Shown in pieces: positions 6,485-24,767 of a stretch of DNA of 64,000 nucleotides; the first letter of the stretch is position 1; each line of letters begins with the position of its first letter. A program made the translations under genes and the position numbers. Source of the stretch: Botryosphaeria dothidea (lineage: Eukaryota > Ascomycota > Dothideomycetes > Botryosphaeriales > Botryosphaeriaceae); NCBI GenBank assembly GCA_011503125.2, contig WWBZ02000040.1:3782001-3846000 (forward strand), read 5' to 3'. The notes beneath the pieces were generated by a model that worked only from the letters and a program-made list of their open reading frames with translations, was not told the DNA's origin and did no database searches.

Positions 6485-7235
6485 CAATGACCTTCGTGCG
6501 CCACCTGGAGGTGCTGGTCCGTCTCCTGCCTCGCTCGGCCTTCAGCTTCCATCTGAAGATCTTGAGCTGGATACACATTTGTGTAAGAGACAAGAACGAC
6601 CTTCGACGATCTTTGAGTACGGGCGCGCCGAAACTTGTTCAGCGGCTAACTCGTAATTTATCTGTCGGAACATACTTGAATGTTTTCCAATTTGGCTTAT
6701 TCTTCGCGGGAATTTCAACATGACACCGTTCTCTCCATGGATGGAAGGTCATCTTTTGTGCATGTAGATTTTCGGCCACATTTCATTCTATCAGTGCCAC
6801 AGTGTTTGAGTTTGCGGATGTAGCTGCACAATCAATGATATTTCATCTCCTTTCCGTTTTTTTTTTCATACACGTTACTGTTCCGTTGTGGGAGAGTTTC
6901 CAAAACACAGCTAACACTAACAAACATCATTGGAAACAGAATTTCGGACTCACTGGCACACCGGCTCAGGTAGGGCGCGCTGCTAACAATGGAAACAAAG
7001 TCGTCTTCATCCACGTATTCACATGGACGTTTACTTGGAGACTTCATAATTGAAGGACATCCAATCCATCAAGGAAGGTCTTCCTCAAGGATGGCCTGCT
7101 TTGCTGCCTGGAAATCCTAGCGCGGGGTGCGGCGAAGCCGATATGTCTGGAGGACGCGTCGCTGGACATCAACCAACTTGCATCTCCCCGCCTCTGTTAC
7201 CCAAAAACGACACCGATTGCTGATCGTAGTATATC
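6485..7235. other. intergenic, no gene recognised
   Basis: AT-richer DNA with a T-run near 6857. Short open frames on both strands have no recognisable composition. Confidence 0.4.
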
Positions 7236-22039: not shown

Positions 22040-23896
22040 ATGTCCACGAAGCCCATTTTCGCAGCAACCCACCCCAGGGCATGCTCGACCGCTTTCGAGC
22101 GCGTACGTCATCGCCCTCACCCAAACACTGCCATCTGACACCTCACTAACCACCTGCCTTCCTTCAGGTCTTCATGACGTGCCGTGACACGCTCCAGTGC
22201 GTCCACGAGCCCTTCGGCGATGCCTTTTATTTTGGTCCCGAAAGGCTCAGTGAGCGCTACGAGCAAGACGAGGCCGCCAGAGCCGAGAGCGGCTTTGAAG
22301 ACAGCACATATAGGACCATCTTTGAAAGGATAGACCGTGAGAACACTGAGGTTGGATCCCTCCCCCCCGCCTGGCAAGAAGTCGTATCCTCGGCATTGTC
22401 TCCGTTCCCTTTGTATTCGCCATCATCCACTCCCATGTCCAAAAGTCACGAGAAAAAAAAGAAATATACTACTTTCTTGTCACCCCACGTTCCCTTCATG
22501 GCAATTGTGCTTGAAAGTGCCTCAACGGTACTCCGACACGCTACTATTTGCTGCGGCCGCCGGCGAATCAGCAGCTCAACCTGCTCGCAAGAAAACGCCA
22601 AGATGACGCATTCCCATGACCACTTTCCTTTCTGAGCCCGGCGAGTACCGTGGGAGCTCGCAGCCAGCCACAGCGAGGTCTCAACAAGTACTTACCGGGT
22701 TTACAGGGGAAGCGACTTTTCATCAAGGATATCACGCACTACCTGGTGCCTCCGGACCACAAGCCGGCCTCGATTGCGTCATCCCTCGTTGAGTACAAGC
22801 GCGGCGTCGGCACTGACCTCGCCAAATCGAACCCACACGCCCGCGTTGATAGCGCACACGGCACCGACGCTGTCACCAACGGCGACGTCAACGGTGCGCC
22901 GAATGGGGTGAGCCATGAGGCCAGGATCGAGGTGCGCGAGGCTACCAAGCCTCCGTACCCCTATCCCACCACAGTCGAGGCCGGCAATCCGACTGTCGTG
23001 CCAACCGAGCTGCTCAGCAAGTTCCACTGGACCTTCCTGATCCGCCACCCGCGCAACAGCATCCCCTCCTACTACCGCTGCACCATCCCTCCGCTCGACG
23101 ACATCACCGGCTTCAAAAACTTCATGCCCTCAGAGGCTGGTTACGACGAGCTGCGCCGTACCTTCGACTACTTGAAGAATATCGGTCTCGTCGGGCCCAG
23201 GATTACCGGTCAGGACAACACCGAAGCGACCAGCGTCAACGGTACTGTCAAGCCTCCGTACGGTGCGGAGCCCGTTGATATCTGTGTCATCGATGCCGAC
23301 GACCTGCTCGATGACCCTGCTGGCATCATTTCGAAATACTGCGAGAGCGTCGGCATGGAGTACAGCCCGGACATGCTCAACTGGGACAACGAAGAGGATC
23401 ACCGCATCGCCAAGGAGAAGTTCGAGAAGTGGAAGGGCTTCCACGAAGACGCTATCGACTCCAAGGATTTGAAGCCCCGCGCACAGGTGAGTTGAGATGC
23501 TGTTCCTTCCGCTCAGACCTCATGGCCTTTGGGAGCCATTCTCTGTCTTTAGTAGATCTGTCTTCCGTCTATCAGTTCGATCATCACAAGCGTCTGCTTT
23601 GCATGGATCCGAGGATGTGATTGAGAAAGTATCGTCGATGACAAGAGATTGGTTTTCCTGCGGCTTTGGTTCGGGTTGGAAGGAACAGCTTGATGAATTA
23701 CTATACCCATCTTTCTCTCTGAACAGACATATTAACATCGCTGATCAAAAAGAAGAAGATTCCGAAACCAGACGACGAGCTCTACGCCGAGTGGGTCCAG
23801 AAATTCGGCGAGGAAGGCGCCAAAACCATCAAGGAGACCGTCGATGCCAACGTCGCCGACTACGAGTACCTCAAGCAATTCGCCATGAGGGTTTAA
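22040..23896 (+). CDS. P-loop sulfotransferase-like protein (three introns)
   Basis: Model: join(22040..22102,22168..22350,22707..23486,23753..23896), 389 aa. Intron 1 (65 bp) has GTACGT, CACTAAC and TCAG. Intron 2 is unusually long at 356 bp and its donor (GTTGGA) is weak, so its 5' boundary is uncertain. Intron 3 is 266 bp, GTGAGT to an AAG acceptor after a TTAAC branch site. The protein opens FAATHPRACSTAFERVF, resembling the phosphosulfate-binding loop of sulfotransferases, followed by HEPFGDAFYFGPERL and KRLFIKDITHYL. FLIRHPRNSIPSYYR matches the 3'-phosphate-binding RxPxxxxxS motif. The family is a fungal group of P-loop NTPase/sulfotransferase-like proteins of unknown substrate. An insert rich in Gly, Asn and Val (residues about 125-150) looks disordered. 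Confidence 0.75.
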
Positions 23897-24268: not shown

Positions 24269-24479
24269 GCCTGGTTGGCGCAATTGGCAGCGCACGCCTC
24301 TTCTAGTTAGCGACATGAGTATACTCCCAGGGTAGGTAGTGCTCTGCATTGCGCCTTGGTCGAAACGTATCCGTGGAGCTGCCTCATTTGAGAAGGCGAG
24401 GTCGCGGGTTCGGTGAGTCTCTTGGTTCAAACTTGAACGGCGTTCACTACTGACATGAAGCAGAGTCCCGCACTGGTCA
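24269..24479 (+). tRNA. tRNA-Arg(TCT)-like gene with two introns
   Basis: Removing 24306-24392 and 24413-24463 leaves a 73 nt cloverleaf. The acceptor stem is 24269-24275 with 24472-24478 (six of seven pairs including two wobbles, one C/U mismatch at 2-71). The D stem GCGC/GCGC is perfect, and the A box TGGCGCAATTGG fits. Anticodon stem CGCCT/AGGCG is perfect, with loop CTTCTAA and anticodon TCT at 24302-24304, decoding AGA. The variable loop is AGGTC and the T stem GCGGG/CCCGC is perfect. The first intron (87 nt) lies after position 37, the normal tRNA intron site. The second lies inside the T-loop between positions 57 and 58, splitting TTCG from AGT. The discriminator is A (24479), and six Ts follow at 24485-24490. 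It could be a pseudogene, but perfect pairing of three of four stems argues against decay. Confidence 0.7.
24413..24463 (+). other. T-loop intron with spliceosomal signals in tRNA-Arg(TCT)
   Basis: 51 nt. It starts GTGAGT, has CTGAC at 24450-24454 with the branch A ten bases before the end, and finishes GAAGCAG. Length and signals equal those of ordinary mRNA introns in this window. Removal creates GGTTCGAGTCC, a perfect B-box/T-loop. The intron itself contains GGTTCAAACTT (24424-24434), a partial B-box match. Confidence 0.7.
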
Positions 24480-24484
24480 TATCC

Positions 24485-24490
24485 TTTTTT
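24485..24490 (+). terminator. Pol III-type oligo-T terminator
   Basis: Six consecutive Ts start six bases after the discriminator base of the first tRNA-Arg-like gene, as expected for RNA polymerase III termination. Confidence 0.6.
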
Positions 24491-24590
24491 GAGAATGCGA
24501 GGAAACTTGTGTTTTCTTCTACATTTTCGCTACTGGTATCGAACATACGTCCATATGTGGTATTGAAACAACCTTCTCCTTCACCAAACA

Positions 24591-24755
24591 GGCCGGTTAG
24601 CGCAATGGTAGAGCGTACCCCTCCTAATCTCACTCCTTTCTGGTGGTGGTAAGGGTTCATGGAAAGGGTAAGGTTGCGGGTTCGGTACGTCTTCTCAACT
24701 TTCTCATATGCTGAGGATAATACACTAACATGATTCTAGACTCCCGTATCGGTCG
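24591..24755 (+). tRNA. tRNA-Arg(CCT)-like gene with two introns
   Basis: Removing 24627-24664 and 24685-24739 leaves a 72 nt cloverleaf. The acceptor stem GGCCGGT (24591-24597) pairs fully with 24748-24754 (two G-U wobbles). The A box is TAGCGCAATGG. The D stem is GCGC/GAGC with one mismatch. Anticodon stem TACCC/GGGTA is perfect, with loop CTCCTAA and anticodon CCT at 24623-24625, decoding AGG. The variable loop is AGGTT and the T stem is GCGGG/CCCGT. The first intron (38 nt) sits after position 37 and contains AGG, able to pair with the anticodon as in normal pre-tRNAs. The second (55 nt) splits the T-loop at exactly the same place as in the upstream gene. The discriminator is G. Five Ts follow at 24763-24767. 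This copy is the cleaner of the two. Confidence 0.75.
24685..24739 (+). other. T-loop intron with spliceosomal signals in tRNA-Arg(CCT)
   Basis: 55 nt. It starts GTACGT, has a perfect CACTAAC branch site (branch A at 24728, eleven bases before the end) and finishes TTCTAG. The block ACTAACATGA matches ACTGACATGA in the upstream copy, so the two introns are probably related. Removal creates GGTTCGACTCC, a perfect B-box/T-loop. Confidence 0.75.
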
Positions 24756-24762
24756 ATTTCTC

Positions 24763-24767
24763 TTTTT
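24763..24767 (+). terminator. Pol III-type oligo-T terminator
   Basis: Five Ts lie eight bases after the discriminator base of the second tRNA-Arg-like gene, fitting RNA polymerase III termination. Confidence 0.5.

Follow-up and report, generated by a model that had tools for sequence, protein, structure and literature searches.

Spliceosomal-type introns within the T-loop of nuclear tRNA genes of Botryosphaeria dothidea

Two interrupted tRNA-Arg genes

The window, the whole stretch of 64,000 nucleotides analysed here (C36:3782001-3846000, from an assembly of 51.7 Mb in 78 contigs), contains two interrupted tRNA-Arg genes in tandem on the forward (+) strand. Gene 1, a tRNA-Arg(TCT), begins with an exon at 24269-24305 (tRNA positions 1-37) that is made up of the 5' strand of the acceptor stem, the D arm with its A box, and the anticodon loop. 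This is followed by an 87-nt intron of the canonical endonuclease type between positions 37 and 38 (24306-24392, as placed by ARAGORN on the T-loop-spliced sequence) and by exon 2 (24393-24412, positions 38-57), the 3' end of which reads TTCG. A second intron, 51 nt in length and of spliceosomal type (24413-24463, GTGAGT...CTGAC...CAG), lies in the T-loop between positions 57 and 58. Exon 3 (24464-24479, positions 58-73) completes the gene, and a TTTTTT resembling a Pol III terminator is found at 24485-24490. Within the T-loop intron there is a weak B-box-like sequence, GGTTCAAACTT, at 24424-24434 on the same strand (starting at intron nt 12; score 5.2, shuffle p 0.05), and its register is that of the boxes in the Asp and Ala introns described below.

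Gene 2, a tRNA-Arg(CCT), has the same arrangement. Exon 1 (24591-24626) is separated from exon 2 (24665-24684, also ending in TTCG) by a 38-nt 37/38 intron at 24627-24664, the register of which is ambiguous by one base either way. A 55-nt spliceosomal-type intron (24685-24739, GTACGT...CTAAC...TAG) again lies between positions 57 and 58, and no B box was found inside it. Exon 3 follows at 24740-24755, and a terminator-like TTTTT at 24763-24767. As in gene 1, the A box is retained in the sequence. The intergenic region holds an inverted B-box-like sequence, TGTTCGATACC, on the minus strand at 24535-24545 (score 10.2, eleventh among about 128,000 sites of the window); it is possibly an extragenic B box and a candidate replacement for gene 2, and chance is also conceivable. 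Elsewhere in the window, an H/ACA snoRNA, snR36, is located at 6519-6674 (Rfam RF01242, 66.5 bits).

The coordinates and lengths of both genes (24269-24479 and 24591-24755) had been given in a preliminary description of this DNA and proved correct on re-reading, and the oligo-T tracts that it reported downstream of each gene are present. Its statement that each gene forms a cloverleaf only with two insertions taken out also holds, the products being 73 and 72 nt long with 20 of 21 standard pairs each. The one unpaired position is C2.T71 in gene 1 and G12.A23 in gene 2.

Genes of this kind would be overlooked by tRNA finders: ARAGORN called no tRNA across the window, nor any in the 3 kb around gene 1 when introns of 0-150 were permitted, and Rfam at gathering scores found none in the window. 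Once the T-loop insert is removed, ARAGORN recognises in gene 1 an Arg(TCT) with an 87-nt 37/38 intron, but gene 2 comes out as Gln(CTG) through a different parse of the anticodon loop. Gene 2 is assigned to Arg(CCT) here because that fold is better paired (20/21) and resembles an unsplit Arg(CCT) paralogue. Energy minimisation of spliced gene 1 does not give a full cloverleaf, and folding of the unspliced precursors did not yield a clean one.

Further evidence that the two genes are tRNAs comes from comparison with unsplit relatives. Across six Arg sequences, split and unsplit, cloverleaf pairing is kept in 97.6% of 126 cells compared with 74.1% in shuffles (0 of 500 shuffles as high), and 15 of the 21 pairs show changes on both sides; stem changes between the split and unsplit genes are compensatory. 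The unsplit genes are an Arg(TCT) on C1, which ARAGORN names Thr(tgt) and which is Arg(TCT) by our own reading, and an Arg(CCT) on C47; the window genes differ from them on both sides of many stem pairs. With these present, the window genes are not the sole source of either anticodon. The preliminary description had named intact Arg(TCT) and Arg(CCT) genes elsewhere, together with silence of the split loci, as grounds against its reading, and the intact copies, one half of that combination, do exist.

Split genes and empty sites across the genome

The same T-loop site (57/58) holds an insert in no fewer than nine distinct nuclear tRNA genes of this genome. Besides the two Arg genes of the window, these are Asp(GTC) genes on C1, C12, C36, and C47, two genes reading as Ala(CGC) on C29 and C36, and a Pro(CGG) gene on C12. 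Four gapless patterns, each made up of a T-loop followed by a donor, matched 30, 19, 15, and 42 places genome-wide, and every one of these 106 places was inspected. Split tRNAs were found in 12 of them, three being C78 copies and the rest the nine distinct genes. The count of nine is a minimum, as the patterns covered some donors and one T-loop position; the D-loop intron described below came to light by chance. The pattern GGTTCGGTRHGT accounts for 30 genome-wide matches, of which four close a five-pair T-stem after AG|A, namely the two window genes and their identical C78 copies. The 15 places matched by the pattern GGATCGGTRHGT included no split tRNA. One further place that closes a T-stem after AG|A (L172) was rejected for its lack of tRNA context, and five more were dropped in which the stem closed but A58 was missing.

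Given the sequences without their T-loop insert, ARAGORN names both Ala genes and two of the Asp genes, leaves the Asp gene on C36 ambiguous (Asp or SeC), and miscalls Pro as Ser because a further insert remains in its D-loop. The identities of Asp C36, Asp C47, and Pro are drawn from their paralogues. Asp C47 has one terminal T-stem mismatch (C49.A65), fails the five-pair criterion, and was discovered through its exons. The two Ala(CGC)-reading genes contain a G3.T70 pair, which we take to be a sign of alanine identity; their D arm resembles that of the Pro and Asp genes, and a DNA search of the genome found no unsplit close paralogue of them.

The wider tRNA set is incomplete, as the RF00005 search of the genome scored 63 of 1,497 candidates. 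It gave 61 matches, 16 of them on C14 and C26, which were taken for mitochondrial contigs; 44 of the other 45 were retrieved, C2:245571 being left out. A Lys-like tRNA at C58:2826308 (about 98-166 of the retrieved piece) is missing part of its T-arm and is probably a pseudogene. C36 and C78 share 7,001 identical bp and four pairs of tRNA places displaced by about 885.7 kb. Being identical, the C78 copies may represent an allele, assembly redundancy, or a recent duplication, and they were rejected as comparative evidence. The likeness of the two contigs stops short of the C36 Asp gene, and no counterpart of that gene was found on C78. Outside this genome, the split T-arm pattern had no matches in viral sequences and two raw, uninspected matches in a contig collection, both in bacterial MAGs, and an A-box 18-mer gave 68 raw, uninspected pattern matches in viral sequences.

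Empty sites are provided by the Asp and Pro families. A search with the spliced Asp sequence found seven nuclear tRNA-Asp(GTC) genes, four split and three unsplit (C29, C7, and C3). After in silico splicing, Asp C1 and C12 are identical at every base to the unsplit genes on C29 and C7, Asp C36 is an exact match to C3, and Asp C47 is one base off. The split C36 gene and unsplit C3 gene are 96% identical over 104 bases, a short upstream flank included. The seven Asp genes form two anticodon-intron subtypes with split and unsplit members in both, and this mixture implies intron gain, loss, or gene conversion more than once.

The Pro(CGG) gene on C12 can be compared with an unsplit paralogue 20 kb away, from which it differs by two GT...AG inserts, one of 50 nt in the D-loop and one of 58 nt in the T-loop (the T-loop alignment was read by eye, the program alignment there being wrong). 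Beyond these there are substitutions and, in the 37/38 intron that both genes have, a one-base indel; the third exon is identical. The D-loop intron (C12:1472463-1472512, GTAAGT...CTAAT...AAG) lies between G18 and G19, and the A box is still readable in the DNA because the first G of the intron replaces G19. Taken together, these exact empty sites indicate that removal of the inserts restores tRNAs that the genome also encodes unsplit. Given such unsplit isoacceptors, the split copies of Arg, Asp, and Pro may be silent or not needed.

Splicing signals and promoter elements of the introns

In the textbook view, introns of nuclear tRNA genes lie between positions 37 and 38 and are cut by the tRNA endonuclease, not by the spliceosome. 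Both window genes contain an intron of this canonical kind beside the T-loop intron, which differs from it in position, in signals, and in presumed enzyme. The T-loop donors are GTGAGT and GTACGT in the window genes and GTAAGA, GTAAGG, or GTAAGT in the other seven, so that all nine fit GTRNGT or come close to it. The donor formed part of the search patterns; the branch site did not. A branch motif (CTGAC, CTAAY, or TTAAC) with its adenosine 10-13 nt before the 3' splice site was present in all 11 Pol III introns tested, a set that includes the U6 intron described below and the Pro D-loop intron. In the T-loop introns alone this distance is 10-12 nt, with 10 nt in gene 1 (CTGAC) and 11 nt in gene 2 (CTAAC). 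The acceptor is CAG or TAG in six T-loop introns and AAG in the Ala and Pro introns. A strict donor-branch-acceptor grammar, composed after these introns had been seen, has a start at 2.7e-5 of positions when the window is dinucleotide-shuffled (20 shuffles).

The preliminary description held that the inserts match the mRNA introns of the window. The T-loop introns are 51-58 nt long, and three window mRNA introns measure 53, 65, and 68 nt, one of them ending in AAG. In the upstream protein gene (22040-23893), the first intron, whose limits follow from the protein sequence, shares the donor GTACGT with gene 2 and contains CTAAC 18 nt from its end. Two alpha-galactosidase introns were placed by eye from the reading frames; one has a branch-to-end distance of 14 nt, and the other lacks such a motif. 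In branch distance, 14 or 18 nt where the motif is present at all, the mRNA introns differ from the T-loop introns.

The four Asp introns, each of 53 nt, can be aligned without gaps and are invariant in 28 of 53 columns; as relatives, they are not independent cases. The longest invariant blocks are CGTTCGAA, which includes the Pol III B-box core, GTAAG, and ACTAA. Outside the donor, B box, branch, and acceptor, mean pairwise identity is 0.55. When the middle columns were permuted 100,000 times, 474 of the permutations gave an invariant run of eight columns; permuting all columns gave such a run in 9,108 of 100,000.

The presence of a B-box core in these introns bears on how the genes might be transcribed. 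The insert displaces A58 and everything onward in the gene's own B box, and the score falls from 17.2 to -0.2 in gene 1 and to 5.8 in gene 2, using a weight matrix built on 10 distinct B boxes taken from the unsplit tRNAs of the same genome. Eight of the nine T-loop introns contain the core GTTCRA, seven of them at nt 13, where 1-3% per intron would be expected; it was not found in the T-loop intron of gene 2. The intronic box spans nt 12-22 in seven introns and nt 15-25 in Pro. The full 11-base box stands above shuffles (p <= 0.021) in five of nine T-loop introns. Best-site shuffle p values for Asp are 0.0085 (C1), 0.021 (C12), 0.078 (C36), and 0.27 (C47); those for the two Ala introns are 0.0035 and 0.0015, for Pro 0.002, for window gene 1 0.05, and for gene 2 0.65, and three mRNA introns gave 0.22-0.89. 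Oligo-T occurs within 40 nt after all nine split genes, a count that has no control set. Absence of TTTT from the introns was dropped as a sign of Pol III, as the three mRNA introns lack it likewise.

These data bear directly on whether the split genes are decaying or silent copies that make no mature tRNA, with signals persisting by relatedness or by chance. This is possible, most of all for gene 2, and is unlikely for the set as a whole. Unsplit Arg, Asp, and Pro isoacceptors exist, the usual B box is broken and the gene 2 intron contains none, and each window gene has a stem mismatch. Against this, the Arg exons show compensatory changes, three of the four Asp genes have exons identical to those of unsplit genes, donor, branch, and B-box core make up the longest stretches that the Asp introns share unchanged, and oligo-T follows every gene, with the proviso already given.

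An intron of spliceosomal type with an internal B box is already present in another Pol III gene of this genome. Of three U6 loci, the copy on C18 (the C18:304005 locus) is split by a 58-nt intron at 1564-1621 of the retrieved piece, GTAAGC...TACTAAC...CAG, which contains CGTTCGATCCC and has GTTCRA at nt 8. The U6 genes on C3 and C12 fit the U6 model uninterrupted, and AGTTCGACCCC directly follows the oligo-T of the C3 gene. The combination of spliceosomal signals and a B box within a Pol III-type intron is thus plain in U6 C18, in Ala, in Pro, and in two of the four Asp introns, weak in gene 1, and absent from gene 2. In fission yeast, the B box of U6 is located within the intron. The split tRNA genes share with that gene a presumed Pol III origin, a U2-type intron, and, for the most part, a B box inside it. 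They differ in that the host is a tRNA and not an snRNA, the gene's own B box is broken at a fixed place, and an endonuclease-type 37/38 intron is present too.

Alternatively, the split tRNAs may be exons of spliced non-coding RNAs made by Pol II, from which they would be processed out. Spliceosomal removal is normally coupled to Pol II, and such an origin would fit a B box that is broken at its usual place. We regard it as improbable, as the A box is kept, the B-box core lies in eight of nine introns, and oligo-T follows within 40 nt. Splicing of a Pol III transcript also has a precedent in fission yeast U6, the mRNA-type intron of which is spliced out as part of U6 maturation, as described in excerpts of PMC10484740.

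Proposed maturation and its place among tRNA introns

The explanation that we favor, at a probability of roughly 80%, is that the T-loop inserts are U2-type spliceosomal introns in nuclear Pol III tRNA genes and that most of these inserts hold a replacement B box. The anatomy of the genes, the empty sites of Asp and Pro, and the conservation of donor, branch, AG, and B-box core in the Asp introns are its observed parts. Pol III transcription, spliceosomal excision, a functional mature tRNA, and the action of the spliceosome before the endonuclease and end processing are steps that we infer from the sequence. That the window holds two tRNA-Arg genes with a spliceosomal-type intron in the T-loop, as the preliminary description proposed, is the best reading and is backed by the seven further genes, the empty sites, the conserved signals, and the U6 intron. 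What that description overlooked was the extent of the phenomenon, the intronic B boxes, and the unsplit Arg copies.

In the proposed pathway, each gene would contain two kinds of intron, a 37/38 intron removed by the tRNA endonuclease and a T-loop intron removed by the spliceosome. Pol III would start from the A box and, in most genes, the intronic B box, and would stop at the oligo-T. In the transcript, U1 would pair with the GTRNGT-like donor, and the adenosine in CTRAY or TTAAC would serve as the branch point. Excision of the intron would join TTCR|ANN, and the T-loop would be rebuilt. RNase P, RNase Z, and the endonuclease recognise the folded tRNA body, and spliceosomal removal would for this reason probably come first. 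The endonuclease would then take out the 37/38 intron, and the T-loop would close. A B-box core in the intron would allow TFIIIC to bind and so uncouple the promoter from the RNA product, as in U6 genes with a B box in their mRNA-type intron. It is probable, at somewhat lower confidence than the intron assignment itself, that part of the Pol III promoter has been handed to spliceosomal introns, that some of the tRNA supply relies on pre-mRNA splicing, and that D-loop introns such as that of Pro behave in the same way.

Introns outside 37/38, and several introns in one tRNA, are also found in archaea, Cyanidioschyzon, and the Guillardia nucleomorph, according to excerpts of PMC3978253 and PMC8450103. 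The ectopic introns of archaea and Cyanidioschyzon rely on a bulge-helix-bulge, and many of those of Guillardia form no defined motif of this kind (excerpts of PMC3978253). That the inserts described here are likewise ectopic endonuclease introns would suit their tRNA setting and the non-canonical positions known from archaea and Cyanidioschyzon (excerpts of PMC3978253), but it is very improbable, since the central helix reaches at most two of four pairs in all nine T-loop introns in every register under strict scoring, which led us to reject a bulge-helix-bulge at these junctions, and the conserved features are donor, branch site, and AG instead; the Pro D-loop insert comes closest with three of four central pairs, yet has one of three outer pairs. 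The introns reported here lack a bulge-helix-bulge and instead have GT-branch-AG signals and, in most cases, a B box. According to an excerpt of PMC8450103, eukaryotic tRNA genes have no more than one intron; the tRNA genes of the window have two, and the Pro gene has three.

Both the kind of intron and, through U6, a Pol III host for it have precedents; a tRNA host and a B box moved into the intron that disrupts it appear to be new. Among the matches listed by a literature search that covered few subscription journals, no title dealt with spliceosomal introns in tRNA genes. We know of no paper that describes a tRNA host or an intron into which the promoter box that it disrupts has moved. With nine genes in a single genome, the known tRNA introns would gain a spliceosomal kind and, if the favored explanation is true, tRNA splicing would gain a further route beside the endonuclease and self-splicing. 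An element of the Pol III promoter would likewise be found within the introns of several tRNA families. With split and unsplit paralogues together in this fungus, intron gain and loss, promoter rescue, and the access of the spliceosome to Pol III transcripts may be open to direct test.
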